From assembly GCA_030386875.1 (NCBI GenBank), contig CM059572.1:41394232-41458231 (forward strand): 64,000 nucleotides of DNA. Reading direction: 5' to 3'. Positions within the stretch are counted from its first letter, which is position 1. Each line of letters begins with the position of its first letter. This document shows, one piece after another, positions 3,821 to 54,900 of the stretch. The notes under the pieces are model-generated. The model had not been told where the DNA came from. It made no database searches and saw only the letters and a list, made by a program, of their open reading frames with translations. This stretch comes from Morinoia aosen (taxonomy: Eukaryota; Arthropoda; Malacostraca; Amphipoda; Talitridae). The position numbers and the translations under genes were made by a program.

Positions 3821-3847
3821 CGCGTACTGGGGAGACCCCGGTTGGCT

Positions 3848-3871
3848 CCCCCTAGCACAATCGCTAGGGGG
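3848..3871 (-). repeat. 9-bp perfect inverted repeat in LINE leader
   Basis: CCCCCTAGC at 3848-3856 is mirrored by GCTAGGGGG at 3863-3871 with a 6-base loop. It lies just upstream of the ORF1 ATG and would form a GC-rich hairpin in the element's RNA leader. Confidence 0.6.
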
Positions 3872-4233
3872 CACCTTGTAACTGCTTACAAGCTCCTCAG
3901 ATGATATTGGTTTAATAATCTACATAAAAGAACAAAATAATACAAAACCCCGATGTAGGGGGGGCCGCCTGCGTTGGTTCTACCTACAACAAGCTATCAA
4001 GAATAATTAAATGAGGTCAGCCTGTTATTTTACATTAATTATCTAATGTATATCAAAGACAAGTAGGTATACTAATAGTACCACCACGTAAAGGTGCAGG
4101 TCGACTAGATACACTCTAGTAAGAATGTACCTTCTATCAAATCCTTGTCAATATTCAGCAATGTTCCCTTCACACATATAAACAAATACACTTGGTACCA
4201 GTAAACGTGGTAAAGGGAACACGTAAAATTTCC

Positions 4234-9839: not shown

Positions 9840-9963
9840 CTTCAGGTCCTTGAGGTCGCTGTCGTCCGCTTTGCCCTTGCCCTTCCTGGGCCGCTCTGAG
9901 CTCTTCGCCCTGCGCGGCGTGACAGCCACGGCAGACCCTCGACGGCTCACGTTCAGCGACCGA
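9840..9963 (-). CDS. Ankyrin gene exon 11
   Basis: Acceptor TGTGCAG before 9963 and donor GTGAGC after 9840. Enters in phase 2 (AG of exon 10 plus T makes Ser) and leaves in phase 0 after 41 whole codons. The product is a basic tail with SRSLNVSRRG and SSERPRKGKGK, probably disordered and possibly a nuclear-localisation or phosphorylation region. A following exon must exist. Confidence 0.8.
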
Positions 9964-12900
9964 CTGCACACAATGAGTCCAGCAAAATAATTAACTCTTT
10001 AATTCAAGATCAAACTGGTGATCGCTTCAAAAATTAAATTTTGCATATAGGCTAAAACTTGTAGTCATTTCAGAAAATCAGTTTTCAATTTAGGACCAAA
10101 TTTGTGATTGTTTCAGAAATTCAATCATTAATTTAGCACCAAACTAGTGATCGCTGGAGAAATTAAATATCTAGCTCAGGATCAAATATGTGACAGTTTG
10201 AAAATTGTAACCCCAAGTTTCACAATTCAAAAATGAATTTTTGATTATTTTGCACGGTTCTAACCAATCCCCAGAAGTGATATTTTGAATTCTGAAACTA
10301 AGTCATGTTGATTTTTTATTATTTATCAATACGAATTCGAAATAACATTTTAGTATTCGCGGTGTGGGCAAAATTCACGTAGCAAAATATTTAGCAGCCT
10401 CTCTGTGATATTTCATACGAAGTATGCATACATTAAACCAGATTGTCACTTTTAGAATCACTGAAAGTTACCCCAACTTTGTGTTTGCTACGCAGACAGC
10501 TACCTCGAGTTTAGAACACTGGTCAGAGTAATGGGCTAAGTGCTCCACAACTTGATAAAATTCCACTCAAACTTTTATTTTTCAAACTGAATAATCGTTA
10601 CAATGATCAAAATCACAATGGGTCTCATTTTCTGCATTAAAATGAAGATATTTATGATGGAAAATAGGAGAAAAGTACCTCATACTCGAGTTATCTTCAA
10701 GCAGGAACAACAAAAAACTATAAAATTTGCCCATTTTTCATTTTCAAAGAAACAGATGAAAGTAAAGTAAAACGCTTGATGAATTCATAGATTTTAAATC
10801 ATAGCTACACACTACATAGTGAATTTTTGGATAACGTACATGCCATCTTTAAGCGAGCAGCATGCAGCATGATGAATCGATGAAACATATTAAAATCAGT
10901 TAACCTCATGCCCACCAGTGAAGGAATTAATTTACTAGCAGAGGAAAAATTTAAAAGTAGGTCTTAACTTTTGACTGACATACGGGACTGAGTTTACTTA
11001 AACATGATAAAACAATTCAACCATACTCATTTTTGTGAGACAATTCATTAGCAGTTGAAAATTTAAAGGTACATCTCAAAAAAAGGACCAACGTACACGC
11101 AATCGAAATCATTTAACACTTTGACCGCAACGTGCTCCACCGGTAGCCACGGAGGGGATTTTCAAAACGCTGCTGACTGACCAGTTGTAATAAGCTCAAT
11201 TTTTATAAATACTTGATTAAAGCTAAATGAAGACATGATCCAGTTAATATTTGCTGCTTAGGAAATTGCTTACAACAAATAACTTTAAATATGAGTTGAA
11301 CATTGAACGTCAGTTTAACCAATAGCGGTAAAAGTGTTAAATATGATAAAAGCATTCAGCAATGCCTATCACAGCGACACACAATATCAGAGGTAGAAAC
11401 AACATGCTTACCTCGGTCTAGCGCGAGAATGCGCCCGGGACTGAGCCCGAGAGGGCGTCTTGGAGGCGCCTCTGGAGTACGGGATGTCGAGAGTGCCGTT
11501 GCCGCTGCGGGGCGCTGCGATGGGCTCGTACACCACCGACAGGTCCAGGTCCCCTGGCTTGTTGCGGTACATCTCGGCCGTCTTGTTGAACTGCCAGGAA
11601 CACAATGTATTTAACCTTATTTATTCATAACATGTTAAAATCGGTTGGCTTTTTACGGTGTAGGTTTTACAATTTGTTGCAGAATTGACAGTGTCACAAA
11701 GTATCCGGCTTTTTTTCATTCATAACTTGTTACAATCGAGGGTTTCTGTTGCGGTTATTGAACTGATGCTATCAAAATGTCTTTGATTATCTTCGTTCAT
11801 AACGAACTGAATTCAGCTTGCATTGGAACAGTTCCTACTAGTTGTTGAACTGCCAGTGTGACAATATATTCTATGGTATAAATCCACTATTTCCTGCTGA
11901 GCGGATGAGGACAGTTAAAACTTAAGGCTTTGTTAAGGCCGCAACTTAGCTTCCACAATCAAGTGGGCCAAAAAATTGAACCCTTCACAATGTACCATCA
12001 CCCAAACGGACACAGGAATACTTTGATGAAATAAATTCTATTGATTCGCTCATGCGATCAGGAATGTAGCAGCGTGAAATGGACACTGGCCCACTGCGTT
12101 CACCTTTAAATCAAGATATTGTAAATGATGCAGACGTTGCGGGTGACTAAAAAACTATTTCTACTAACAAAACACAAATTTAGGTTGAAATCTTACGCAT
12201 GGTATGATGTAAAATATAAAGACAATATGCTAAATTCGAAGAGGCTGATTTAGATAACGAAGTCATTTTAATTCATATTCATTGGCTAACACCTGACCTT
12301 TACTAATATGCTTTCTTAGCATCTAGACTGAGCAAATTCCGCACAGTTTTCCATCAGTAAAAACTGATGCTGCACTGGTGCTCACCCGGTCCAAGTGCTT
12401 CTTGTCAGCTCCTCCTTTGATGAGAGTATCGAAAGTCTCGCCGCCGTCGTCAGGGATAGCGGCGTAGTGCAGCGGTGTCCGCCCCATTCTGTCGGATGTG
12501 AAGACTGCGGACTGGTTTCTTTGTATTATCCAGTCGCACATTTCCACGTGGCCGAGGGCGGCAGCCTGCGCAACGAGGTCAATCTGGTCTTAAACTTATG
12601 ACGCCCCTTAGAACTAGACGGGCCTTTCTCGGAAATAGCCTTAGTGAATTACATTGCTTGTAAAATTTTATATGCTTCGTCAAGTTCAATGTCGAGGGGC
12701 AGTTCCTTCCTTCTTCTGATGTCATTCACAACCAGATGCCATTGCCAGTCTAGTAACGGTAGTCATGATAATAGTGATTCGAGTACAAAGATTCTTACGA
12801 AGGGTTAACCAGTTATGGCAAAATGTATCCCGTTATTTGACGGAAATATGTACACTTCGAGCGTCGTTTCTCATTTCAACTCACAAAAAATATTTAGATG

Positions 12901-15900
12901 GTTCGGGGTGGACTACATTTTTTTCGGGGGAAAGAAATTATTATTATTATTATTATTATTATATAAGAAAGTTTTAGCCTCCCTTAACCACGACAAAGAT
13001 GTTCCAAGAGAGGAAAAAGGAAGGCACCATTTAGAATGGAGTCGAGGGAACGTGGAATCTATGCACAAGGTGCACAGAAACAGTAAGCTAGGAAAGAAGT
13101 TCATGAAACAAGAAAAAAGTTGAAGAAGAAAGAAGAAGGTGCGGAAAAACAGGACAGCAGTGAACCGAAAAAAGATGGTCCGTAACAAAACAAAAACCTA
13201 TTTTATTACAACAAAAAGGAAGCCTACCTAACCTTTAGCTCGGGCCCACACATGGTTCCTCTGGGAGCGCTAATTCCCATAGATACAATAGTTGTATCCC
13301 CCTGAGGGGTCGGGGGAAAGAAAAGACTGGCGAGTTTACGATAGTGAAAGATAAACTTAAACACAATAATTTCAACAAGTTAAAACCGAAAATTCATAAG
13401 ATTTATTTTCATATACCTCTCAAGCAAAACGTGATGCGAATATTTGAACCTTTTTGCTTGTGCAGCTTTAGTCTTTTTGGATTTAATTCTTCTGAAAACA
13501 CTCGACTCAGATTGTTTTAGCAGTGGATTGCCTCCAATTTGATGCAACAATCCGGTCACCTTGTGCAGAGCGTTGAGGCCGTTCTGATCCTTGGCCGCCA
13601 GCAGCTCGGGCTGGTCCGCCTTGGTCTGCAGCATCTCCATGTCTCCTGTCACGACTCCCTGGTGCACCTCCTTGATTTTGATCTGAAGGCGACGAACACA
13701 ACTGGAGACTATTCATTATATTTAGTTCAATAGATGGTAATATTAATGTAAATTTACGCTAAGTGTTCTCTAGAAACGTAACGAAATGTTTTTCAGGGAT
13801 CCAAAATCGGTCACGTGAGTCACGCGAAGAATCATTCATTCTTCATAATCTTTTACAGCGAACGTGGCGAACTCCAAATTTGGTCATTTTTAACTATTAA
13901 GATTAATAAATTTGAAGTGGACTCTCTTGAAAGTAGAACTATTGGAAGTGTTCTAATAACACTTACAAGGTTATAAAAAAGTTCCCAGACTAAGTTAATT
14001 GGTTGTACATCTACAGTATAACAGTGTGAAGAAACAAAAATCGTCTCTAAATTAATTTAATAACTTCTATGAAGCAAAATAGAAGTTCATTTTCAATTTG
14101 CCCTTTTTTTGCTTTGATTACTCTTTGAATTTTTTCTCCAAAACTTTAAAAAAAGACACGCAGTTTCTTTTGCAGTTTAAGAGTGGCATGGCGTTTACTT
14201 TTTTCAGAATACTATAGACGGTTTCAACTACAAATTGTGTCAGAAACGTAAAAACATTCCATTTGTAATCAGCAAATATCAGAAGCTTTTATTTCAAAAG
14301 TCTGGGGACTTTTTCTCCACCCTGCAGATTGATACACTAGATATGCGCTTACACGAAAGTTGAGCTGTTGGAAGAGTTATGAAAACACTTACACTGACGA
14401 GCTCAATGTGGGTTTGCATGAATGTTAAGGTGTTGAGTGTAAAAACATTTGAATTGACACGTTCAGTATGGGTTTACATGAAAATCGAGAAACTGAAAGT
14501 TGAGCCGGGATTCACTACACACCGGCGTGCACGCACGTTGCTCTACTGACCATCATGCGCGGGACAAGGTTCAGGAACTGGCGCACTTTGGGGATGTTGC
14601 TCGTCTCCTTCATGAGCTTCTGGCCCTGACCTTCCCACACGATGCGCTCCAGCTTCGGCAGGTCTTGGTCGTGTATCCAAATCCTGATGTTGGCACCCGT
14701 GATGTTCAGACCTGCACAATTTTGTTGCTCATGCGTGTTATAGTCCTTTAGTTTATGTATATTGCCTCAATAGATTTCAGCCGATTTTTTGCTAGTATGT
14801 CCCAGCCAGCTTGTTGCACAGCCAGGCCTTTGCTCCATAAATTCCATAAATGTCTCCAGATAAGCTTTTCTTACTTATCATTTCCCCATAAATATTTCTC
14901 AATGAAGACCACTCTCCTACTTATTTTGCTATATCTCAATTATTAATAGATTTTCATAACATTTTAAAATGCCGATCAGGTTAACAAAAAAATTCATTAA
15001 TCACTTAATGCTTAACATTCAGTTTTGTAGTCAAATAATGGAATATGCTTAATCGTAAGAATCAGCAGTTGTGAACTGGGATTGAAGGGAATAGTTAACT
15101 TCTTTGCAAGAGTGAGATTCGCCCGAAGATTCTAAAAAACTTTGAAATCAAGTGAAAACTGTTGCTCTAATTTTTCCCTGATGTTCATCAGATTCTAATT
15201 AGTCATGAGGGCGTAACTGGTATTATATGCTCAAACGCATGCTGATGTAATTCATATATCGACAATACCTTGAGCAATTCATGCCTTGCAAACAATAAAA
15301 AAATGTTAAACTGCACCGATCTCTCAATTTTTGAGTGCTAAAAGTATACTGTTTCAATTTACAAACTTGTGGTTATCGATCAACACGGAGCTTCCATCCA
15401 TCACATTACGACCGTCCATATAGATGGCGTTTTTTTCTTAAATTTTAATCAGCTATCATCATAGCTAGTGCATTAACCCATAAACTTTCGACTAATTAAT
15501 TTCCCATGAAAATATCATTTAACCCACTGGCAACCAAGACCACCTATCGCAAAAAAGCGGTACCAATGGATAGAGAGTATCGCTACCTTCTCTCTTGGGC
15601 GGAGTGGAGACTTTCTGCCTCCGTTTGCTCGGGGTGGACTTCTTGCGGCTGCCACCGGAGTTCTTCTGCCTGTGGGTCACTTTCAGGTCCGCAGGCCGAG
15701 ACATGTAGTGGGACGCCGTCTTCCCTCTGTTGTCCTTCGCCTGTAGTCATGTCATAAAATACAACTCATCTTTTCAAGACGCAAATTACAACTGGAAGTG
15801 GTGTTTGGGAAGCTGTTCTGTGGTTTTTACGCCGAGTGAACATAGAATGTGAGGTTGTCTAATTCTGCTCTGTACTAAGTAAACGACGGTTAATCTGTAA

Positions 15901-18900
15901 ACGCCTAACACCATCACAGAACCTGTGCCCAAAAAAAAAGTTTCACTTACCACGACCTCCAAGGTTGCCTCTGCTGCATCTTAATTCACGGAGGCTTCTT
16001 CTGTGCTTTAATAAAAAAAAACGATTTGATTGGCGCGCTTTGACTGAGATTCAAGAATTTAAAAATTTTCCCTTCACAAGTTTGTGAGGTCGATACGATT
16101 CTCGAAACTAAGTTTTATGTATAGTCAAACTTTACTAATTGACTTACACAAATTTTACCACGTTATTACGAGACTATTATATAGGAGACTGTTTCTTTAC
16201 CTACGGATGCGGAAATATTCAGTCCTCTTCCACTGAATATTCGCACTATCAGTTACAGTATCAGTGGGTTGGAAGAAAGGGGGCTAACTGAGAATGGACA
16301 CAACTGTTATTTCAGGTACAACAGTTGCAGTTTCAGTTTCAATTCTCCCTTTAGCCTGAAGTTCGTTTTTTTACTCATAGGTTCAAATAAACTTTCATCA
16401 TTGGAGTGCTGTAAATAAGAGAAATAACACTAAATATCTAGGAATATAGTGTTATAATAAATGTTACGAATAATTCATGCGCCCAAGTTTACACCTGAGC
16501 GTCGACTGATGTATTAAATAATACTGCAAACTAATCAGGTGCCCAAACAATCACTGATGCCAGAGTTTGATGAAAGAACAAATTTCATACAAAAATACAC
16601 ATGCTTGAAAATGCCCATGAGAGTCGCCTGATGTCAGAAACAAAATCACTAACAATACAGGGGCCTAAACATTTACCTGAGTGTCGTCTGAGGATAAAAA
16701 TCACGTTGCTAACAATACAGACACTCAAACACACTCCCCTAAGCGTCGTCTGATGTAAGAAATAACGTCACTAACAATACAACCTCACACTCACCTGAGA
16801 GTCGACGCCAGGCGTATCGTTGAGAATGCTGTAGATGGCTTCAGGCGACTTGCTGGCTGCGCAGTAGTGCAGGGGTGTGCGTCCTTCCTGTGACCGAACA
16901 GCAAACGGGGTGCGTACTTCAGTATTATGCTTTAAAATCCTGATCGATAATTATGCAAATGGAACACTAAGCAATTCGTCCTTGAACAGTCGCTCCTTCA
17001 CGGGCTTCTGCTTCGTAATTGCCAGCGAAGCAATTCACGCCCTTTGAACTTTTGCGAGGGGATTGATGGTCATGCAATGAAACCGCTCACTCTGAAATCA
17101 TATATACGAGGCTTCTAGGTACCGTATATTTTTCAACTTTTAAAACCCTCATCATGCAACTCCTGCGAGCGCTTACCATTATAATCTCCTTACACTCGTA
17201 TGTATACCAAATTTATTTCACTGGCAATAAAAAAAGGTCCATTTTGGTCCGGCACACCAAAATTACATCATTCCTATAAGTTTTGACTCCAAGCAACATC
17301 AAATTTCAAATAACTTTCACGTCTCCTCGCAGGATTTTCTTTCAAGAGTTTCACAACGTTTTTTTCAGCTTTGTAAAGATTTGAAGGGGCTCTTTGTTAC
17401 GAGAGAGCCGCGGCCTTGGATGAAGGCGATAACTTCTACGTTCGATGCAGGCAATGGTGGACGCCACTCATTGACACGTGCCTGCGTGTAGACTTCGTGC
17501 ATCAAATGTACGCACTTCACGAGGGCGAACGCACTCTGCACTTCACATGGAGGTTATTCAGTGAATTAGTACGTATCTAGATAGAATGATTTTAAGTTAG
17601 TTTGAACCCCATTAATTAATCACAACAAAGGGAGGTTCACAACAAAGAAAGGAAGGTAGGAGGCATCATTGAGGAACGAGATTATTGGAAAGAGGAATCT
17701 GTGCAGAAGATGGGTCTCCACATTCTACGCATAGAATCCTCAAGATTGCAAAAAGTTTACAAAAAAAGATGACAGTTAAAGAAGGAAGAGATAAATGGCA
17801 GGAAAACGACAACGGTGAACCCTTAAAAGATCGTCCATAACATAGAAAAACCTGCTCCGTTTTAAATGAGAGGAAGACTCACATAGCCTTCAGCTCGGGA
17901 CCTCACATTTTTCCTGGGAATATGGCATGAGCACTAACAAGGCTAGTTACGACGAGTAGTAATACGAAAGTACAACGTAAGAAGCAGCAATACGAAATCC
18001 AAATGCCGGAACAGTAATGCAAAGACTAAATGTAAGGAAGAGTAATACGGAGGCTGATTGCGTGAAGTAGTACAAAGGTTGAAAGGCATACGAGGCAACA
18101 TAAAAGCTAATAAGTGTAACAAAAATACCGAAAGTTGTGTCTAAAAATAAATTAAAATCGAGCGTAAATATATAATAGATTCAATGCACCTTAACGCTGC
18201 GAAAAGTTATTTGAAGATAAATAAAATATGAAGCTACTGACTTGAAGAAAAATTTACTTATACTATTGTTAAAAATGATATGAAGTAAAATGAGAGCAGT
18301 AGGGTTTTAGTAACACTGTAAGAACAAAAACTTAGGGATGCACAAGTTTTATTCAAAGTCATACGACAGAAAAAAGCTCAATAAATAATGACATATCAAC
18401 GTAGCGACAGTAGAACGAATTACTATTATAAAACGAGCCGCGTCCGTCCGTCCGTGTGACCCCCCCTTGATTATGGTATCCATAATACGCAATTTTATTA
18501 TTATTTATAAGCAATTGGCTTATTTTTACAAATAGAAATTTTCTTTGCAGCATTCACTGTTGAAATTCATCAAGTCGCTTTGATATTTTTAATTTATAAT
18601 GCAAAAAGAAATGTTTTAAATTCGTTCGACCAGTAACCTAGCTTCCACTAAGTATAAAGCCCAAGATTTTGGAACTTGAGTTATTGTTTTCAAAATTATG
18701 ATTTTCTTGAAAAGCTTCGAAGAGATAATAGACTACATTTCAGAATGAAATTCCGGCAAAAGAGGCCACCATGGATATAAGTGTGTCCAACCGCAAGAGA
18801 GAAGTAGCAAGACTTCGACAGCAAGAAAAACGCCGAAGACGATCGGATGAACAACGCGAAATGGCAAGACGAAGCAATGCTGCTTGCCAACGAGAAGCTA

Positions 18901-30900: not shown

Positions 30901-33900
30901 ATTGTAGCATTATCTACCAATCTGAAACAGATGAGCAAGTTATTCCAAGAAGACAACCAACTTAAAACAAACTCGGCACGAGCATTTCGTCTAGTCTCAA
31001 TAGTGTAGGATTTAGGAAGCATTGAAACTTCGCCCCACTGGAAATGTCAATTTTCGTTATTTTCTTCACCAGTTCCTTGGTGCTTCCGCTGGTATTAACA
31101 CTTTGACTGCGACTACTAAGTATTAAGTTCAACACCAAACTCAAATTTAATGTCAATTGTATTAAGCTATTTGAAAAATACTAAACATGAACTGGATCGT
31201 GCCTTCATTTAGCTTTGATTAAATATTTATGAAAATTGGTTTCGCAACTACTGGCCGGTCAGCAACATTGTGAAAATGACCTCCGTGTACCACCGGTGGC
31301 GCACCTCGCAGGTAAAGTGTTAAAGATGAACGGTAGCCAGCACACTACGAGCAAAGCCTTATTTCTAATGAATACTTCATGATACTGTCCTGTCATAATA
31401 CTAAAATAACGTAAGCATTGAGGCTTTGGTAACAATGAATATAATCTAATACAATTCTCTCTTAGATCATGTTAGCAGTCAAACTGTAGTTAAAATAAAT
31501 ATTCCAACAAACCGCTCTATTTTAACTCTATGATCACATAAGAAATACGGAACTCTACACTACACAACCAAAGATTTTTAAATTGGTACTTGAAGCACAA
31601 ACTGAAGACGCAGTACTTACTCGACAGACTAGTTTCATGTAGATATAATAATACATCCCCTCTAGAGGATTCTTGGAGAATACGACAGCATTAGCAGGGG
31701 TAAAAATATTGCATCATTTGCACGTATAGATTTCCATAGGCATGCGACAGTAAAAATGTCAAGAATATTGCATATATAGATTTTGAAAGAGACGTTGAAT
31801 GAAAGGTATTGAGTATCACAGCTGCGTTAAGTTTGAGCATCTCCGTTGAATACAAAACATTGTACACCCAAAACGCGCCTCGGCATCGCTCGTATATGCT
31901 GCTTACGATATTTAGAAAATGTGTTTCTTTGTCTAACTTCTGTCGATATAGTAAGTAATTTTCACCCGTTATTGTTTGATTTTGACTAATTTTGTTAGCA
32001 CTTTGTGCTAGTTTTAATTGGACGTTTTAAAGTACAAATTTTTGCGACACGTCGGTTGGCACAACCTGCGACTACTTGCAAAAGTGGCAACGTGACCAAT
32101 TTAAGGACGAACGGACGAAAAATTAACAACAATGACTAAAAAAAAGAGTAACTAATTCACACGCATGAAAGAATATATTAGCCGAGTATCATGACGAGGA
32201 AGAAAAACAACAAATAAATTCCTGTACGGTCACAAATGGCTCTGGATCCGCAATACCCGCAGAATAATGCTATAATTATTTCACAATCCTTCTTTAGTTC
32301 AATGGGCTCCGACAAGCTAAAAATCGACAGTATAATAGTTTCTACGAGAATCCTAGTTTCTAGATTATCTTGATTGTACCTTTTGAAAGCAAGTTTATTT
32401 ATACGGTGTTCAAAATCCCGTTTGTTCATAATTTATCTTTTAGGAAATTTGCTCGACTTCAAGCTTAGTTCCCATCTTGAAAACTAGTTGAATCTAAGTT
32501 GATTTTTCTACGTTGGTGGTATGTTATTTGTTTAGGCTTTTTCAAGAGAAATTTGCACTCAGGGAAGTTTTATTTTTTCAGCACAATAGTAATAACCCTG
32601 ACGGGTCACATTTTCACCGAAAGTCGAACTCGAGTAGCACCAAGAACTGTGCATTCAGGGAAAAGTTTCGCACCATCTCGCTAGTGCGGGCTGGAAGATT
32701 TTCTGTCGTTCCAATGGTCCTGGAAGGCTTTGAGCTTGGACTGCTGGTCGATCTCTTGCTCCACCAACTGCCTGTACCTTGGCTTGCCTGACTCCAATTT
32801 AACGTTAAACTCCTCCAGCTTTGCCACGATCTCAGCCATCGTGGTATCCTTTATGATTCGTTTAGGTGAAGAAGTGTTCGAAGTTTGCGTTGAAGCGCTG
32901 CGATTCCCAGATTGGATTCCTGAATCCCCGAGCGATGTTCTCTTCAAAGACCGCCGTGTTTGAAGCCGAGAAGGCGGAGTCACTATAGTTGTACTGACAA
33001 CTCCGTCAAGAATTCTATCGGATATACTTTTGGCCCAATAGCTGACGTCGTGTTCGAAAACAACTTGCTTGGTTTCTTCTGCTGCCAGTTCGTTGTGTAT
33101 CTCGCGCTTGAAAACTTTGCCCAAATCAGCTTGGGCGGCAGCCAGAGTGGACCAGAGTAACCGACGACAGAACCTCTGCAAATCTGGTGGGAGGTCGTCA
33201 TTAAAATGAATTCGATTTTGTTGTTCCGAAGGTTCAGGCTCATCAGCCTTATTTGCGTCTGCATTTTGAAGTTCATCTGCGCATCCTTTCAAATCAAGCC
33301 CAGTATTTTTATCCTTGGGGTAACGTTTCTTCTTCCCATCGAATACTAAATTACCAAGAGAAGCATTGATTTCAGCAACCTTTTTCGGCTTTGAGATTTT
33401 TCTCTTTGGTTTATCCTCAATTTGTGAAGTGTTCATCCTTGGTTTTCCCCCAATTCGGGAGGGATTCGCCCAGGGTCTTCCCTCGATTCGAGAAGGGTTC
33501 ACTCTGGGTTTCTCTTCAATTCGAGAGGGGTTCATTCTAGATTTTTCTTCAATTTGAGAAGGCCTCACACTGCCGGTAGTTAATTTCTTTGAACGCCTCA
33601 TGCGACCCTTGAAAGCTCCATCTTTGAAATTCATCGCTGCCACGGTATGTCCATCAATTGTCATTTTCGACACAGAAATCCTTTCTCTGGCACTCCGTGG
33701 CATCACTGTCGGAGTTCTCGGTCGCTCCACAACTTCTGGCGCACTCTCCGTTTCAGTCACCAAAACTGGCAGTTTCACAGCCCCACTTTTGGGTGTTTGT
33801 GGCTGAAAAAAGTCACCGTCATCAATGAGGCTTGACCGACGGACTTCCCGTTTAATAAAATCAAACACGATTTTGTTTCTTCTCTGGACGAGGTGCCGAA

Positions 33901-36900
33901 TATTTGCTGAATTAGGGACGACAGGATACGATGTTTGAGCAACGTGACGTGGGGAAGGCTTCGTTGAGGTTTTCTTCTTTATCTTTTCTAGACCGACAAG
34001 ATCCTCGACTGATCTCAGTCTGTCCTTCTTTGCTGCTTTCTTCGCGTTTGGCTTTTTTCGAATGGCTCCAGTGGCTGTGTTTTCATCGTGTGTAACTTTG
34101 GGCTCAATTGGCTGCAGTTTCTTAACGAGAGTAGGGCTTGCAATTTCGTACGTCGTACCGTTTATGTTCGTCACTCGCGGGTTATAAACTGGACTCAATT
34201 TCCGCCTGGGCAAATAACTCTTGAGAATTTCGTCATCGACCATTCTGTGGCTCGATGTCCTCATCCCTGATGCAGTTGGTGGTAAGGGCATTTTCTTCGT
34301 GAAGCTCATAATAGACGAAGAAAGATCGGAATGCTCAAACGCGCTGGGACAGGTATACTCGCTCGAGACACCAATTTGTTCATTTTTTAAGCTTATTTTT
34401 TCTTCGTTTGGATCTTTAACAGGTGACGTGTCATCCAAACGGGCAGATACTACAATACCATCATCTGAAAGATCGTCCGCGTTCTCTTCTTGTATAGCAT
34501 TGCTCTGATCAAACAAGTCACTCAAAAAGTAAGAATTTTCATCAGCTTCCCAGTCAACGACGCCATCCCAAGGATCAGAGACGCTTGGCTTTGTTTGAGC
34601 ATCAAGAACAGGCCACTCAGTGTTCGATGCAGAATTTATATCAGATCTCAGTCTCTCGTTGAATTCCTTTAGTTGTACACCAACGGGCCTATATTGGAGG
34701 TCTTCTGCATAGTTCCCGTGAATATCTTCAGCCATTTCAGTACACCCGAACTCATCTTCAACGGTGCAAATGTTCAGGAAATTGTCCTCGTCTGTTTCTC
34801 CAGCCAGCGTGGCAGCGCCTCCTTCGCTAATGACGTGCGCGGAGTCGGTGACTTTCTGAATGTGCTGATCCTCTCCGCCCGCGTCTCCGGTCCGCTCCTG
34901 CGGGCGAAGAGGCGGCACATCAGCACTTCTTAGTCACACCTTCACAGAGTTTAGCCTCACTCGGCTTTTTTCGTCACACATTACAGTTTTTCACCTCATT
35001 TAGCTTGTCATCCTGTACTTCGAAACTAGCATGTCCAAGCGTCACGGTTTACAGGTCTAAGACCCAAGATTGTCGCATCTAAAACCCCGAATAAGCATTT
35101 CCTAACTCAATTAAAATACTCAAATACACATATGGCATATTTTTACCCAGCAGCTGAAATATTCAAATCACTATTCGCATGTCCATACCCCAAATTGACA
35201 CACCCAAACCTCACAATTGACAAGTCGAAAAACAGCGACTGGCGTACCTAACTAAGCCTCGTAAATATCTTATCCAAACTTTACAATGGGCATAACCTTA
35301 CCCTGCGATTTGCATTGAGAAACCTCGTAGTTCCCATTTCGCCCCGCTTCTCAAGGCTGACTGCATCTTACATATTTACTGCATGCTATTAGTATCTAAG
35401 AACAAAATGAGTTCTCAATTGTCGATCTCTGAAGACATTTTCTTTTATGATGAGTTGGACAACTCTTCAAAATAAAATAGTCATTTTATAACTGAGCAAA
35501 ACTGTACTGGAACACTGATTCGTGAGAAGTACAAATCTTTCAGGGAATCATAAATTAGAATGAGCAAAGAAAGCGGAGAATTTCACATTAGCAGCAAGAC
35601 ACGGCTGAGGGCACAGTTAACAAATCAATAACTCCAGGTTGTTTGCAGCAGCGCCATGGAGATTGGCCTCACAAGCGCACGTCGATGCAAAAACAACGAC
35701 TTCATATAAATCGTAAACCAGTGAGTGACCATGAACTACAAATGACACACATAATTTAGATGACTTTCATTCCGAGTAATTGGTAAAGAACCAAAGTTAG
35801 CGTTGCCAGATAACGACAGTCACTTGTTTGTTGTATGAAGGAATGCATTAAGTTATGATTGGTGGTTCATATAGATTTCTGAGCCGAATTATGAATCACA
35901 GGTCGATGTTCACCGACGATGTTTGTTGGAAAGTAAAAGGTCGGCAACCACGAAGGGCACCCTTAAATAAATGTGATCAGATAGTGAGGAAAGAAATGAC
36001 TCTGTAGCGGATAGTAAAATAAATGCTTAAACGCTCCACAGCGTGCGCGCGTACTCTTTTATTGGCTTAGAAAAGGAAAGTCAATTAAGGAGTAGAACTG
36101 CTCATAAAAGACAATTCTCCTCCAGAGGATCCAATTATTTTACGAACCTACTCATAGGAGAGTAGCATACTTCTATTTAAACCAAATTCGTTATCGATTT
36201 AAAACGTAATAAATATTTTGATTTTGATTTTGATTGATTCAAGTTGGTTCAACTTGAAGGGCAAATAGTTGAAACTTATTTTTGAAAGTGGATCATCAGC
36301 ATTCAGATATCAGAAAAATCTCATCCCAAATTCTTTTCGTACAAAAAAAATCGACTTTCTCACCGAATTGCAAAAAATAATGTAATATACCCAAATACAC
36401 AATTGAAATATTCCACATAAATATCACAAATTTGAAGTTCATAAGCTTTCATAAACTCAACCTTTATATTTAAACTAAACTATAAACTTTGGAGGCTATT
36501 GACATCCAGAAAAAAATTTTCAAGTACGCTTACTGTGATGCGTAGAAAATCTATAGCAAATCTAGAGTGGCCAAAACGCTAGTGAAGAATATAGGTAAAA
36601 AAATACATTCAAATTCAAATAAAAAAATGTATTGCTTTGCTCTACAGTACAGTTTAAACTGATCACAAGCATACATCTGAGAGTCAAGCAGAACTGTATT
36701 CAGAGAGTCTGGATTTGCGGACACTATTGGCTTATTGATCAGCGCCACACTCTTGCGAGGCGGAATGTACCTAAGTCCGGGCGATGTTATACGAAATCGC
36801 ACTTGCTGTGCGCATAATTCATGCTTGGATGCGTTTCTTTTGGGTTAAAATGAGACTGAAGGATTGGATGTGACATAAAGAAGGGCAAAGCACAACAGAC

Positions 36901-39900
36901 CGCATGAATCGTGTTTGAAAAAGAAATCAAATGGGTGAGTTTTTGAGTGACTTCACAGCCAGGCAAAGTGGTATAGCAGTTAACGAAAAACAGTCTTTGT
37001 AAGTAAAGACGATGCGTCTTTCAAACAGGTCCACACTCGTGTGTTACCCAAACGCTAAAATTATCTACTGTAAAGAAATTTAACTGGATCTTCATCTCGC
37101 AAGAAATTAATGAGCACAATACGTATATTGGAAAGCTTTACCCGCTATAGCATAACTACGTATATGTTCTCGCTGAAAAGTTTTGGGCGGTGCTAATTTG
37201 CGCTACGTTTTAAATTCAGAAATTCGAATACTGACAACAAGTTACTTAACTTCAGATTATTGCAGCATTATCACCCGAAACTAAAGAGAAAAAGAAAACT
37301 TCAGGAGAAGTCAATGTATCGAAATAAAATTAGGTCGCGTAGACTAACGATAATTTAACATAGGACCAAACTAGGACGCAAAAGGAATTCATAAATACAA
37401 CTGTTGGCAGATTTAACTGCAATTACATACTCTAATAAAGCCTCTACAACGTTTGGGATGAGGTGGTGACGTGAAATTTGACTCAGAATCTCCAGATAGA
37501 GCACTCGGCTCGAGCACACAATTTACACTGGGAGTCCGAAAAACAAAAAAAAATATTGTTACTTCTAGAAGCGATACGCGCGACTTGGAAGCACCATTTC
37601 GAAATAAAATAACTTCCAATTTGTACAGTTTGTGCAAATAAAATTAAATCTAAATGCAAAAAAATCTTCGATTGGAAAATAATTCCTTACTTTTTTCTAA
37701 GAATAAGAATACGGGAAAGTGAAGAGCGGAATTCTGGTAGAAGCATTTGTGACAAATGCGTTAGTGAACAAATTAGCTGGGCTTCTACAGCGTGGACTTT
37801 TCTGAAAATGTTACTCATGGCTTTAAAGCTTAGTTTATGAGAGATAATCACCATCTAGACCCGAGAACATTGTGTTACAAGCAAATTTTGAGTCCAGGAA
37901 AGAGGAGGGCAACAAATGGTATGGATTTAAAAGATCACGAAATTAAAGCACAAAGAGTGTTTTCCCACTCTGCGCTCAGAAACAGCAAGATTAAATCAAG
38001 TTTAGGAAACAAAATAACTGTTTAAGAAGAAATGATAGGCGCTGAAAAATGAACACCTGTGAGACGAAAAGAGATGGATGAGAACAAAAAAAAAACACTA
38101 TTCTATTTCAACAAACCATGGCCAATCTAACCTTCAACTAGGGATGTCTCAACTTCTCCGTGGAAGCTTTAATTTTACTAATTTTCAGAGACATGAATGA
38201 TAGTTGTAGCCCATTGAGAAGATACAACTACAGAAATAAAGTGAAAACTGCAACGGAGGCAAATCGAGCAGTTGACGGAACACCGGCATTACCAATTTAT
38301 TGAACTACGAAAACGGAAGGTGTAATAGAGGCAAACGAGATGGCGCAACAAACGGATGTTTGCGTACTACTGAAATTTGTTTTGAAAATGCATTACAGTA
38401 GTAGGATAAACTGAGAATGTGAGAGCAGTTAACCAAGATTTGAAGCAGTCCTGAGATAATCTTAGGTCCTGAGTAGTTACAAAATAGAAAAAGTTATCTG
38501 AAAAATAAAAACCGAGCAGAAGCATGCTCTAATATTTATGGCATCTTCATTCCGAGGCCCAATATCGTATTCTGAATTGCATATTTACCTTTTATGATCC
38601 ATTGTTCAACGTCGAAGATTAACAACTTTATCTGCAACTGTTTGACGAGAGTACGCACATAATTTATGATCACTTACGTCATAAAAAAATTGATTTTCCT
38701 ATCCTGTTTAGAAAAAAAACAATGTACTGCTACGAGCTCAACATTGCAAAGTATAAATGTACTCACATTGTCAGTGGGAGTGGCAGTCTCAGGGTAGTTT
38801 TGGATCAAATATTCGACCATTTCTGCGTTGCCAGACAAGACGGCCTTGTGCATCAGTCCCAAGCCCTGCGTTTGACAAGCTATTTTTATAACAGCGTCTA
38901 CATTTCAGTCATCGAAGCTCTATAATCAATGTGAATAACGGAACAAAAACATCTCGGCAATGAGAATATCTATTATATAGCATCAGAATCTTGGTAAAAA
39001 TATAGTTTAAGCCAATATATTTTAGGAAATTCGACTGATGAAGCTGAGAACGCATTTGAAAACAAAAAATGAAGTGCTTAATGCCTGCCAAAATGCGAGC
39101 AAATTGTTTACGAAGAAATGGCCTAATATGAAGTCAAATGAAGACGTCACAAGTTTTGAAATCTGAACCATATTATAGTGTTGCGCAAAATAACTGGTCT
39201 TTACGTTACGAACCCATGTCACTAAATAACTTGTTTCCTTAAATTTTCCATCAATTGCTCATTTTTGACAAGATTTATGTGTAACGCTCTACACTTTCGT
39301 GATGTAGCAAAACTCCTATCGGAAATACTACACAAATTCCAACTTTCTCAACACTAAACCTCCCATGAAACACTATTATTCCCTAAAGCATCAAATACAC
39401 GAGAATTTCGACTCGAAAAAAGTTATGTTTGCAAGCGACCGAGTGACCAAACACTCACCTGGCTGTCCTTGGACCTGGCAATTTTCCTCCTGTCGAGCAA
39501 AGTTTTGAGGTCTCTGAGGTTGCCTCGTTCTGCAGCATCGTGAACCAGGTCGATTTTGGACTGTTGTGAAGAGAAAACACCGCATGAGGGCTTTGCATCA
39601 TGCACGCAACTGGATCAAATACACCACTGCATCAAAAACACCATTAGATCAAATATACCTTGGGATCAAATGTACCATTGAATTACACACACCATTGGAC
39701 CTAATAAACGGACATGAACTGCTTAACTCGTATTCTACAAATGAAATATATTGGAAAACACGCGTATTTGAATCTGAGAGGCAATGGTATTCCGTTTCCA
39801 AATATTGTGTTAGAGCATAATTATTATCCTTTAGCTGGAATTTATTTCTTTCTTGATGTTCCACAAAAAGTTTTAGAATTCTTTTGCCTCAATTTGAAGC

Positions 39901-48900: not shown

Positions 48901-51900
48901 TTTTCATTTGTTCGTTTGCCTCATACACGCATACGTCAAACTCTTCGGAGCAATTTCAAGATTCTTCTTTACACTAATGACTATGAATTAAAGTAAAAAT
49001 GAAACTCTGAAAAACCATACACAAAAATGTTGTGACTTAAGAAGCTGTTGAGGTCAACAGCTAGACTCTTCATGCAGAAAAGTGCAATTCACTTTGATCT
49101 CCAGAGAGAAAGAAACGAGCACAAATGACATACAAAGGAAAATAAGCGAGTGGAAAACACATTTAGGGAGAAATGTGTCAGTGAAAAACACGTTCAGGAA
49201 GAACTAAATCACTAAAACGTCAAACGATGAGGAGTAAGCTGCTAAAAATCCCTTCACGGAGTGTAAATGTTATAGAAAGTTTCCCTCTCCATAAAAGAAG
49301 CCAATCCCTTCACAAAGCACAAATGTTGTTCAAAATCTCGCCATAAAAGAATGAAATGCCTTCACAGAATGTAAGTGTCTTAGAAATTTTTCCCTCGCCA
49401 TGAAAGAAGGCAATCGCTTCACAGAGTGTAAATATTTCTCAAAATCTCACCATAAAAGACGGCAATTCCTTTACGGCATGTAAATGTTTTTCAAAATCTC
49501 ACCATAAAAGACGGCAATTCCTTTACGGCATGTAAATGTTTCTCAAAATCTCACCATAAAAGACGGCAATTCCTTTACGGCATGTAAATGTTTCTCAAAA
49601 TCTCACCATAAAAGAAGGCAATCCCCTCACACGATATAAATTTTGTAGAAAATCTCACCATAAAAGAAGGCAGGGTCTTGAGGAAGGCCCTGACTTTGGG
49701 GTCGGTGGAGGACTGTGTGAGGAGCTTGGGCCCCTGCCCCTCCAGCACCACCTCCTCCAGGCCGGCGATGTTGCCGCCCCGCAGGTACTCCCTGATGTGC
49801 GCTGACCCAGAGCCGTTGCTGGACACCACTGTCGGGTGCAGCACAAATTTTATTCAACTATTCAAAAGTTGCATTGACCGAAACCAAGATTTTAATGATA
49901 CACAAAAATTTTATTGATCGAAACCAAGATTTTATTGGTACACAAAAATTTCAATGACCGAAATCAAAATTTTAATGATACACGAATATTTTATTGACCG
50001 AAACCAAGATTTTAATGATACAAAAATATTTCAATGATATTATTTTGTTAACCAACATTAGATTATAATAAATGGTAGTTTAAACCTCCCTAACCGCTAC
50101 AAAGAAGAGAGTATCGAAAAGACGGAGGAGGAAGGCACCATTTAGCGAGAAGGTAAGGGCATGCGGAATCTATGAGAAAGAAGTTCATGGAACAAGATAA
50201 AAGTTGAAGAAGAAAATAGTAGGGGCTGAAAAACAGGATAGCAATGAACGAAAAAGGTGGTCCTTAACTTAATCAAGAAAAAAAAACATTTTATTTCGAC
50301 AAAAAGAAGGCCTACCTAACTCGCAGCTCGGGCCCTCACACATTTTCCCCCGGGAGTGCTAATTCCCATAAATAGAATAGTTGTATCCCCGTGATGAATT
50401 TAGTTGACCAAAACAAAAGTTCAATTGAAAATCCAGAATTTTCCAAGCCAAAATCCAGAATTTTCTAAGCCAAAATCCAGAATTTTTCAAGCCAAAATCC
50501 AGAATTTTTCAAGCCAAAATCCAGAATTTTTAAGCCAAAATCCAGAATTTTTTAAGTCAAAATCCAAAATTTTTTAAGCCAAAATCCAGAATTTTCTAAG
50601 CTGGCTAAATTGTAGACTGAAACCAAGAATTTCGTAGACTGAAACCAAGTATTTTATAGACCGACGCGCGGAATTTAATTCATCGTAACCCAAGGTCTTA
50701 TTGGCAGATGCCCGAAATATTCCCTGGCCCATATTCGAAATTTCTTAAAATATTCAAAATTTTACCGACTGATATTGAAAGTTTACCAACCGATATTTGA
50801 AAGTTTACCAACCGATATTTGAAATTTTATCAACCAATACTCGAAATTTTACTAATCGGCACTCAAAATTTTCTAACGATACCCAAAATCTTACCGATCG
50901 ATAACAGTTCGCCAAATCTGCACCCAATCTCAGTCTGGCTCATCTGCACCCCATCTCAGTCTGGCTCATCTGCACCCCATCTCAGTCTGGCTCATCTGCA
51001 CCCCATCTCAGTCTGGCTCATCTGCACCCCATCTCAGTCTGGCTCATCTGCACCCCATCTCAGTCTGGCTCATCTGCACCCCATCTCAGTCTGGCTCATC
51101 TGCACCCCATCTCAGTCTGGCTCATCTGCACCCCATCTCAGTCTGGCTCATCTGCACCCCATCTCAGTCTGGCTCGTCTGCACCCCATCTCAGTCTGGCT
51201 CGTCTGCAGCCCATCTCAGTCTGGCTCATCTGCACCTCATCTCAGTCTGGCTCATCTGCACCCCATCTCAGTCTGGCTCATCTGCACCCCATCTCAGTCT
51301 GGCTCATCTGCACCCCATCTCAGTCTGGCTCATCTGCACCCCATCTCAGTTGGTACATCTGCACCCCATCTCAGTTGGTACATCTGCACCCCATCTCAGT
51401 TGGTACATCTGCACCCCATCTCAGTTGGTACATCTGCACCCCATCTCAGTTGGTACATCTGCACCCCATCTCAGTTGGTACATCTGCACCCCATCTCAGT
51501 TGGTACATCTGCACCCCATCTCAGTTGGTACATCTGCACCCCATCTCAGTTGGTACATCTGCACCCCATCTCAGTTGGTACATCTGCACCCCATCTCAGT
51601 TGGTACATCTGCACCCCATCTCAGTTGGTACATCTGCACCCCATCTCAGTTGGTACATCTGCACCCCATCTCAGTTGGTACATCTGCACCCCATCTCAGT
51701 TGGTACATCTGCACCCCATCTCAGTTGGTACATCTGCACCCCATCTCAGTTGGTACATCTGCACCCCATCTCAGTTGGTACATCTGCACCCCATCTCAGT
51801 TGGTACATCTGCACCCCATCTCAGTTGGTACATCTGCACCCCATCTCAGTTGGTACATCTGCATCCCATCTCAGTTGGTACATCTGCACCCCATCTCAGT

Positions 51901-54900
51901 TGGTACATCTGCACCCCATCTCAGTTGGTACATCTGCACCCCATCTCAGTTGGTACATCTGCACCCCATCTCAGTTGGTACATCTGCACCCCATCTCAGT
52001 TGGTACATCTGCACCCATCTCAGTGTGGCATATCTGCACCCAATCTCAGTCCGGTATATCTGCAAACAATCTCAGTTCATCAAATTGCTCCCAGTCTTGC
52101 ACCTACCATCAAGTAAATTGGTTAGTTATTCGTGTCAAAAAATTCACTCTTGTCAAGTTACTCTTACTCTGGTCAAGTTACTCTTGCTTGATTTGGCTCA
52201 AAGAAAATAGATAATTCTTACACGCTCCCGGAAGTGAATCAATAACTTGACAGAGCAGTTCCCCGAAAACCGACACTAAAATTGTGAATAGAATAGTTTT
52301 CTTCGAAAAGTGTTATGAATCATACTAGCTGTACTCGATATTTTTTAATGCTCTTTCCAAGCGTTTCACATTCACAAAATTTTGCACAGCATATATCCAC
52401 GAATTTACATGGCGTTGCGATAATTTAAAACAAATCATCCTCGTAAATTTGTTAAAAGTGATTTAAACCAGTAATATTTCACTTTTAGTAAAATAACAAT
52501 CGCAAAAGACTAGACGGTATTAGATTGAGATGAATTTACCAGGATCGTCAGCAGCTAATCAAAGAATTAGTCGCCCACTGAGTGATCAGGTGTAAAAATT
52601 TCTACACATGATTTCTACTGAGTAGACCAGTGCTCTATATTTCTAATTTAAAATATTAGAAAGGAAAAAAGTTTATTTGAGCTATTTCAAGTGCTGACAA
52701 TAACATCCTCTCAATTTGATTACGTTATAGGTTAATCTAAGCCTCCCTAACTACCATAAAGGCGTTCCTAAAAGAGTAAGGCACCATTTAGTATGGATAT
52801 CAGGAAGCTGAGAGTCTACACACAGTATGCACGAGGTATGTCCTCCACCCTGTACATAGAAACCGCAAAATTGAAAAAGTTCAATAAGCACGATAAATTG
52901 AGAAAACGTCCGAGGTACTGAAAAAAGATAGCGGTGAACTAGAGAAGGTGTTCCGTAATCAAACGAAAGCTATTTTTCAACAAAAGGAAGGCCTACCTAA
53001 CACCCTGAACCTAACACTCCGCTCGGGACCTCACATCTACCTTTTAATATCGACAACTCTTATCAATACGTCATAATCCTTCTGAAGAGTATTGAATTCA
53101 TCACCTACTTCGTTTACAAATTACAGGAACACTAACAAACTTTAATTCACAAATAATAATAATAAAAAATAAGGATTATCTCTCGACGTATTAAAACTCG
53201 AACAAATACTTTAGCCAACGTCTTTCAAGATATTTGAGGGGATCATAAATATAGATTCCTCCAAATACGTGACGGCCAAATGAAAGTGTTAACAAAGATT
53301 CAATAACATATGGAAGAGGTACCAAGACATTAGCAAAGGCAATCTAGATTATGGGAGTGATTTGCGAAGAAACAGTCCGTTCCATCATCGTGCGCTGGGC
53401 GCTGACAATGTGGGCCCAATGTTTGGTGCGGGTTGCTTAGGTACGCCGTCACTACGCGCGCTGTGTCAATACCGCGCGTCTCCATAGGCTGCACCTCCCC
53501 ACACCAGCCCCGCATTTGTGTTCTGCTTAAGGGTGTGCGTCACAAAATTTGTGTTCTGCTCAATTACTCGCGTCCCGACGTCTGCGCTCCGCTTGAAAAC
53601 TCCCGTCCCGACGTCTGCACTCCGCTGGAAAACTCCCGTCCCGACGTCTGCACTCCGCTGGAAAACTCGCTTACCGACGTCTGCACTCCGCTGGAAAACT
53701 CGCTTACCGACGTCTGCACTCCGCTGGAAAACTCGCTTACCGACGTCTGCACTCCGCTGGAAAACTCGCTTACCGACGTCTGCACTCCGCTGGAAAACTC
53801 GCTTACCGACGTCTGCACTCCGCTGGAAAACTCGCGTCCCGACGTCGGCACTCCGCTGGAAAACTCGCGTCCCGACGTCGGCACTCCGCTGGAAAACTCG
53901 CGTCCCGACGTCGGCACTCCGCTGGAAAACTCGCGTCCCGACGTCGACACTCCGCTGGAAAACTCGCGTCCCGACGTCGACACTCCGCTTGAAAACTCGC
54001 GTCCCGACGTCGGCACTCCGCTGGAAAACTCGCGTCCCGACGTCGGCACTCCGCTGGAAAACTCGCGTCCCGACGTCGACACTCCGCTTGAAAACTCGCG
54101 TCCCGACGTCGACACTCCGCTTGAAAACTCGCGTCCCGACGTCGACACTCCGCTTGAAAACTCGCGTCCCGACGTCGACACTCCGCTTGAAAACTCGCGT
54201 CCCGACGTCGACACTCCGCTTGAAAACTCGCGTCCCGACGTCGACACTCCGCTTGAAAACTCGCGTCCCGACGTCGACACTCCGCTTGAAAACTCGCGTC
54301 CCGACGTCTGCACTCCGCCTGAAAACTCGCGTCCCGACGTCTGCACTCCGCTTGAAAACTCGCGTCCCGACGTCTGCACTCCGCTGGAAAACTCGCGTCC
54401 CGACGTCTGCACTCCGCTTGAAAACTCGCGTCCCGACGTCGGCACTCCGCTTGAAAACTCGCGTCCCGACGTCGGCACTCCGCTTGAAAACTCGCGTCCC
54501 GACGTCGGCACTCCGCTTGAAAACTCGCGTCCCGACGTCGGCACTCCGCTTGAAATTTTAAGCAAGTTGTTTGCATTTGGTAAATTGTATTGGTAAATTT
54601 ATCCTCATTCGTTACAGATTCTCACACTGCAGTCCTCTCCTTGGAACACCTATGTTGTGGTACTACCAAAATTCAAGAACAAATTTAGTTGATTTCAACT
54701 CCAACTATTTCTGTAACAACCTTTAATTGAGAAAAATTCGTTTGTGTGAGTAGTAAATAATTCAATAACGCTTAATTGAGGCATGAAACATGAACTTATT
54801 TTTAGCACAACGTAAGTGCAACAGCATGGTTCATTGATGACTAGACACAACTACAAAGCAGACGAAGAAAGCAGCTTACCGACAACATTAAGCGGAGGCA

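Follow-up and report, generated by a model that had tools for sequence, protein, structure and literature searches.

Repeated splice donors at an exon end: a minisatellite in an ankyrin-repeat gene of Morinoia aosen

Introduction

How does an exon come to end inside a row of near copies of its own splice donor, and what could such a row do to the gene that carries it? The question is raised by an ankyrin-repeat gene of the amphipod Morinoia aosen, in which exon E2 (exon 2 of the initial annotation) runs into a minisatellite. The window analysed, meaning the whole stretch of 64,000 nucleotides, covers positions 41,394,232 to 41,458,231 of contig CM059572.1 (C17:41394232-41458231) in NCBI GenBank assembly GCA_030386875.1, which comprises 1.99 Gb in 29 contigs. 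Coordinates without a contig label refer to the window. The gene lies on the minus strand, as do all of its exons and boundary arrays, and has ten exons (E2-E11) with AG/GT borders and matching phases in a single open ankyrin-repeat frame. Parts of the predicted protein match Pfam ankyrin models, e.g. Ank_4 at 1.6e-10. Splice boundaries were probably captured near-neutrally by minisatellites here, as a by-product of a repeat-rich genome.

An exon end as repeat unit

E2 (49659..49828) ends in ...FLKTLPSFM in phase 0 and is followed by a GT donor at 49658-49657. The array at this border was delimited with Tandem Repeats Finder, which places it at 49285-49672 (period 52, 7.4 copies), and then by unit-wise cutting on the minus strand from 49673 down to 49249, which gives eight units of 52, 52, 52, 52, 52, 57, 52 and 56 bp. 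Unit 1 (49622..49673) consists of the last 15 bases of E2, the true donor and the start of the intron. It is followed by units 2 (49570..49621), 3 (49518..49569), 4 (49466..49517), 5 (49414..49465), 6 (49357..49413, the 57-bp unit), 7 (49305..49356) and 8 (49249..49304). Every unit opens with a version of the last 15 bases of the exon, CTGCCTTCTTTTATG. With up to three mismatches allowed, this sequence has eight minus-strand occurrences in the 64-kb window, which are the eight units, and no plus-strand occurrence. Comparison of unit 1 with units 2, 5, 6, 7 and 8 gave a score above all 500 shuffles in each of the five cases.

The donor ATG/GTGAGATTTT (the slash marks the exon border) is identical in units 1-5, where the first intron bases are 49658, 49606, 49554, 49502 and 49450. 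The corresponding positions in units 6, 7 and 8 read ATGGCGAG, ATGGCGAG and ATGGAGAG, the GT having decayed to GC, GC and GA. The initial annotation had described tandem 52-bp units at this exon that contain the exon tail and its donor, with 49658 as one rung of a ladder of near-identical donors, and its coordinates, spacing and composition are all confirmed. It had also pointed to recent turnover. The near-identity on which this was based exists, with 96-98% pairwise identity among units 2-4 against approximately 71-87% in the remaining pairs, and the stretch that fits is 49621-49466.

A 40-bp array at 49863-50039 begins 35 bases upstream of the E2 acceptor, which leaves E2 flanked by two minisatellites.

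Age of the exon end

E7 (14551..14711) is a paralogue of E2 (43.75% identity over 48 residues, E 9.5e-10). It ends in ...FLNLVPRMM, also in phase 0, and has no array; a local repeat was looked for in its donor region and was not found. E3 (39459..39560), which starts with SKIDLVHDAAERG and provides the phase 0 acceptor for E2, resembles E8 (13560..13682; placed by frame and by its similarity to E3, 32% over 31 residues, E 0.034). In either pair the interruption falls at one and the same point of the protein and in phase 0, i.e. FLKTLPSFM/SKIDLVH for E2/E3 and FLNLVPRMM/IKIKEVH for E7/E8. Because E7 shares this end point in the protein and its phase, the end of E2 predates the split of the two modules and hence the array, and the exon is the template from which the repeat was copied. 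The earlier claim that the 3' end and donor of the exon itself form the repeat is upheld in this respect as well, since that end is fixed independently by the ten-exon frame and by the paralogous E7.

In favour of the reverse order, with the exon end and donor derived from a pre-existing minisatellite, is the fact that the unit provides a complete donor. The array was nevertheless rejected as the source of the exon end, because E7 has the same end without an array, and at two further loci described below (AMP deaminase and a phosphatase) the match to proteins of known structure extends through the copied exon end as far as the border. This order of events is improbable in the extreme. Birth of the intron from a tandem array was likewise rejected. 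The E2-E3 intron measures approximately 10 kb (49658-39561), of which the array occupies the first 410 bases; it does not lie between repeated splice sites, and its position is common to E7/E8.

A second copy of the locus

At a distance of 2.66 Mb and in the same orientation, the locus is present once more. Taken with 20-bp flanks, the ten exons of this second copy are 99.1-100% identical to those of the window, and long blocks outside the big arrays are mostly 96-99% identical. The E2 array of the second copy has seven units and lacks the 57-bp unit 6; the remaining array carries three single-base differences, while the exon and units 1-3 are identical. The unit number of the E2 array therefore changes, as the second copy has seven units against eight in the window. 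Both features by which a minisatellite is recognized are thus present, namely head-to-tail units of approximately 10-100 bp (here eight units of 52-57 bp) and a variable number of units (eight and seven in the two locus copies). Some other arrays show no difference in copy number between the locus copies. Others differ more than the E2 array, e.g. a 17-bp array at 39609-39671, just upstream of the E3 acceptor (3.7 copies here, 45.8 in the second copy). A GC-rich 33-bp minisatellite at 53566-54555, of which several frames are open on either strand, has 30 units in the window and 52 in the second copy.

The duplication was present at three of four places tested (41.00, 41.30 and 41.56 Mb) and was not seen at the fourth, 42.00 Mb. 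It is a large direct near-duplication of C17:41.00-41.57 Mb and 43.67-44.23 Mb. A kinase search returned pairs of equal score on one contig at other places too, e.g. C2:33.43/37.47 Mb, C4:94.83/95.73 Mb and C17:70.00/72.13 Mb. Such near-duplicate pairs suggest unmerged haplotypes or, alternatively, true duplication. The DNA of the E2 array occurs at at least two places in the assembly, these being the two locus copies, and a protein search found the exons of the gene in two copies only, together with weak matches at C17:41374-41376 kb, at C17:44028-44030 kb and one on C7.

Pairs of this kind, a few megabases apart, are what would be expected if the array or the second copy were an artefact of assembly, and a further doubt is whether the locus is a pseudogene. 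However, the array is found in both copies, each with differences of its own, and all ten exons are open in the window, which together with their near-identity in the second copy speaks against a dead gene. Artefact and pseudogene are both highly improbable.

Consequences for splicing

Scoring of the donor in each unit showed the GT donors of units 1-5 to be equal, with a matrix score of 4.63 and a U1 pairing energy of -8.1 kcal/mol (donor frequencies and the 5' end of U1 were taken as background values). The 10-kb intron contains 554 GT sites, including the true donor, and six of these score 4.63 or more, i.e. donors 1-5 and one site at 44318. The E2 donor is of middling strength among the ten donors of the gene.

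The reading frame separates donors that strength does not. Donor 2 adds 52 bases and shifts the frame, as the initial annotation would have it for one extra unit, and a stop is reached within the ankyrin exon E4 (38767..38865; placed by its AG/GT borders and frame). Donors 3, 4 and 5 run into an in-frame TAA inside unit 2. None of the four decoys keeps an open frame (0/4), and only donor 1 yields the protein at E2. Of two further proposals of the initial annotation, one is contradicted and the other left unsupported by these results. Three units (156 bases) were expected to restore the frame, but donor 4 restores no protein because of the TAA in unit 2; and a buffering of splice-site choice by the ladder finds no support, as donors 2-5 all shift the frame or hit a stop. 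Donor 1 is probably the one used in RNA, likely by exon definition, which would favour the nearest sites across the exon.

The origin of the array can be outlined as follows. A short tandem duplication probably once spanned the end of E2 and its donor. The spare copy would have lain in the intron and been spliced out as long as the exon-nearest donor stayed in use, and slippage or unequal exchange would have expanded the array to seven or eight units. Constraint on coding and splicing would preserve the exon-anchored unit, and its intronic counterparts would be free to drift: units near the exon are fresh and identical, and those far from it have lost their GT. Because any use of a decoy would give a stop-containing RNA, the ladder would impose no more than a mild cost on expression and be nearly neutral. 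The general feature is tolerance, i.e. a duplication that straddles a splice site leaves a spare copy hidden in the intron by splicing.

Conservation of the donor-carrying part of the unit was assessed with a core of 20 columns and a rest of 32 columns in six representative units. Invariant columns amount to 13/20 in the core and 13/32 in the rest (p 0.15), or to 14/20 and 14/32 when only intronic representatives are used (p 0.09). Selection that keeps the donor ladder did not emerge from this comparison, in which conservation of the core does not significantly exceed that of the rest of the unit (p 0.09-0.15), and special conservation of the decoy donors was rejected on the same values. Unit 1 differs from units 6, 7 and 8 at 3, 4 and 3 of the 20 core positions and at 10, 9 and 9 of the 32 others. 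The divergence of the core is approximately half that of the rest, which is about as expected if the exon copy alone is constrained.

These results bear on two ways in which the ladder could be functional. It could act as a tuner in which identical donors compete, donors 2-5 lead to a premature stop and degradation, and the number of units sets the amount of productive mRNA. Five donors of equal strength, four of them unproductive, and a unit number that differs between the locus copies are in keeping with such a role; but each copy has five GT donors, the differing unit having a GC donor, and the core lacks the significant excess of conservation. Tuning is unlikely. Alternatively, U1 bound to decoys beside a middling donor could raise the recognition of E2. 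The rank of the donor would fit this, and in excerpts of PMC8724738 a bound 5' splice site is described as stimulating the upstream 3' splice site. However, E5 shares the strongest donor score of the gene and yet has an array, whereas the weaker donors of E6 (15587..15740), E7 and E8 have none, and assistance of this type is very unlikely.

A second boundary array in the gene and the role of chance

E5 (16795..16887, an ankyrin exon) ends in ...PGVDSQ/GTGAGT, in nucleotides GTCGACTCTCAG/GTGAGT, and adjoins a second boundary array at 16445..16804. This array has six units of 56-62 bp that start at 16804, 16748, 16686, 16626, 16565 and 16504, the last having been cut arbitrarily at 60. Five of the six units open with a version of the last ten bases of the exon, CGACTCTCAG. 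Units 2-6 each matched unit 1 above all 500 shuffles, unit 5 narrowly (23 vs 20). A decoy donor, CAG/GTAAAT, is kept in unit 3 at 16676, and read-through beyond the E5 donor meets a stop after eight codons. With its units of approximately 60 bp, the E5 array is constructed like the E2 array. It is old, and its copy number by Tandem Repeats Finder is the same in both locus copies.

Two boundary arrays in one gene do not exceed chance. Arrays cover 14% of the bases between 9 and 63 kb of the window. Donors fall in arrays in two of ten cases, while circular shifts give a mean of 1.4 and reach two in 39% of trials; acceptors do so in none of ten, so that donors and acceptors together give 2/20 against a circular-shift mean of 2.9. 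In this test, the arrays of the window held no excess of splice sites. In a local-repeat test, in which six exon edges were 1-4 bases off (the starts of E2, E4, E5 and E11 and the ends of E6 and E10), the E2 donor scored 47 and the E5 donor 35, values that 9.7% and 10.9% of random positions attain. Each of the remaining eight donors scored 20, equal to the background median, and the E10 acceptor 33 (11% of random positions). Addition of an adenylyl cyclase exon and an EGF-type exon, described below, brings donors in arrays to 3/12 (P 0.11 at a 10% background). Chance overlap suffices to account for the coincidence of arrays and splice sites in the window.

Boundary arrays elsewhere in the genome

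The assembly was searched for three AGGTGAGT motifs spaced 30-60 bases apart; overlapping matches were counted, so the totals (1989 + 2476 matches against 2164 + 1403 for a reversed control) give no number of arrays. Donor-like ladders as such are hardly in excess over the reversed control. A triple AGGTAAGT search was discarded because it was swamped by AT-rich satellites (4465 + 4245 matches against 17332 + 19602 in the reversed control). Among the triple AGGTGAGT matches listed, approximately 100 places fall into about ten arrays, all in the first 26 Mb of contig C1. Seven of these were examined, and three with 11-17 bp units were left out. Two of the seven adjoin exons confirmed by homology, one of AMP deaminase and one of a PP2A/PP4-type phosphatase, and two (L034 and L037) adjoin probable exons that have no Pfam match; the L037 exon presumably resembles a chitin-binding domain. 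No exon was found in the stretches read beside the other three (L032, L033 and L038).

The phosphatase exon, whose donors lie within C1:24531601-24532900, matches PDB 2nyl (E 2.6e-27), and the match stops at the exon end. Its donor core occurs seven times, mostly 47 bases apart, and of the last 20 bases of the exon 18 are present in decoys 1 and 2 and 15 in decoy 3. The AMP deaminase exon (Pfam 3e-47; PDB 2.7e-45), on the minus strand within C1:22978601-22979900, has arrays of its own ends on both sides. At the donor there is a 21-22-bp array, and upstream of the acceptor the stretch examined contains seven exact copies, 41 bases long, of the exon start with its CAG. The 38-base start of this exon has 23 identical occurrences in the assembly, the exon included, all within C1:22979079-22981550. 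Two additional exons were met in stretches taken only for testing the duplication described above. An adenylyl cyclase exon on the minus strand (Pfam AC_N 4.6e-8, PDB 5.7e-6) lies in both duplicates (C17:41560001-41570000 and 44220001-44230000). True exon included, it has three donor units in one copy and six in the other, and each copy has one diverged unit at the acceptor (4 and 5 mismatches of 21). The EGF-type exon (integrin-like by eye; Pfam EGF_2 4.9e-6) has no boundary array.

Decoys at these exons are mostly unproductive. This applies to all six at the phosphatase exon (the first shifts the frame and the other five run into a stop), to 3/3 at L034, to 7/7 in the two cyclase copies, and at AMP deaminase to 6/7 on the donor side and 7/7 of the upstream acceptors tested. 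The exon-nearest site is the sole productive one at E2, and elsewhere usually, though not always. As these exons show, boundary arrays are not special to E2 but recur at a few other genes, on the acceptor side too.

Remaining features of the window

The other exons of the gene, E9 (12386..12565, an ankyrin exon), E10 (11412..11590) and E11 (9840..9963), were placed by frame continuity, as was E6. A trial protein that joins E2 to E8 gave nothing useful against Pfam and PDB, and an Rfam search gave no match. The E4-E5 intron contains a 750-amino-acid open frame on the minus strand (32681-34933) that has no Pfam match and could fit an exon, a nested gene or a retrocopy. A 635-amino-acid frame at 2012-3919, also on the minus strand, contains a zinc knuckle (Pfam zf-CCHC 1.1e-4) and is probably a gag-like retroelement protein.

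Weight of the evidence and significance

Several observations weigh against near-neutral capture. Units 1 and 2 keep 19/20 core positions and 20/32 of the rest (p 0.009, uncorrected and the lowest of 28 pairs), and the pairs of units 3-5 and 4-5 likewise give p <0.05 for core against rest; the well-kept core shared by units 1 and 2 could point to conversion or to constraint. Donor 1 has no advantage in strength, its matrix score and U1 energy being the same as those of donors 2-5, and its use in RNA is inferred. In addition, the decoy at +21 of AMP deaminase and those at +54 and +84 of L037 (2/4) are in frame without a stop.

Exon boundaries could be recurrent seeds of minisatellites throughout this 2-Gb genome, with arrays of their own donors or acceptors growing outward from hundreds of exons and the nearest site usually the sole productive one. 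This wider proposal falls a little short of probable, and its "hundreds" is an extrapolation: the first 26 Mb of one contig yielded approximately ten ladder arrays, and among the seven examined two, or at most four, lie next to exons. If the proposal is true, the genome holds a genome-wide natural competition experiment on spliceosomal choice among identical sites as well as a hidden, fast-changing splicing load.

The choice among near-identical splice sites is usually studied with a few engineered minigenes. Natural rows of identical donors (E2 and the phosphatase) and of exon starts with their CAG (AMP deaminase) are available here. Their distances from conserved exons are known, and the outcome can often be read clearly, since sites farther off give no protein. 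With RNA reads from this species, the influence of position would be measured separately from that of site strength. For annotators, exon ends at such arrays may be misplaced by one unit.

Comparison with known systems

Introns have reportedly arisen from tandem arrays (work ascribed to Zhuo et al. in PNAS, 2007), and intron gain by tandem genomic duplication is also said to have been reported. The E2 array shares with that work the tandem copying of sequence that bears splice sites. It differs in that the earlier work concerns the birth of introns, and a new intron is not seen here.

The nearest precedent, the human gene IFI6 (6-16, G1P3), is said, after Turri et al. in 1995, to have 12-bp frame-keeping units of which several donors are used. 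As in IFI6, a minisatellite lies over an exon-intron boundary and brings a donor with each unit (here ATG/GTGAGATTTT in units 1-5). By contrast, the E2 units are 52-57 bp long, and read-through shifts the frame or stops. The E2 array would thus be built like that of IFI6 but is not classed as a set of functional alternative donors, because none of the four E2 decoys keeps an open frame. In the parts of PMC2572611 and PMC2915984 consulted, the IFI6 minisatellite with its multiple splice donors is cited as Turri, Cuin and Porter 1995 (Nucleic Acids Res 23:1854).

Among the open-licence papers searched, no title or abstract described genome-wide arrays of exon-derived splice sites. Variable internal tandem repeats have been described for human genes that lie in segmental duplications, where they occupy exon-intron boundaries (De Grassi and Ciccarelli 2009, PMC2812944). 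As far as the sections consulted describe them, those cases resemble the E2 array in being boundary minisatellites that vary between recent gene copies, whereas here decoy donors were added to a long intron that was already present, in the genome of a non-human animal.
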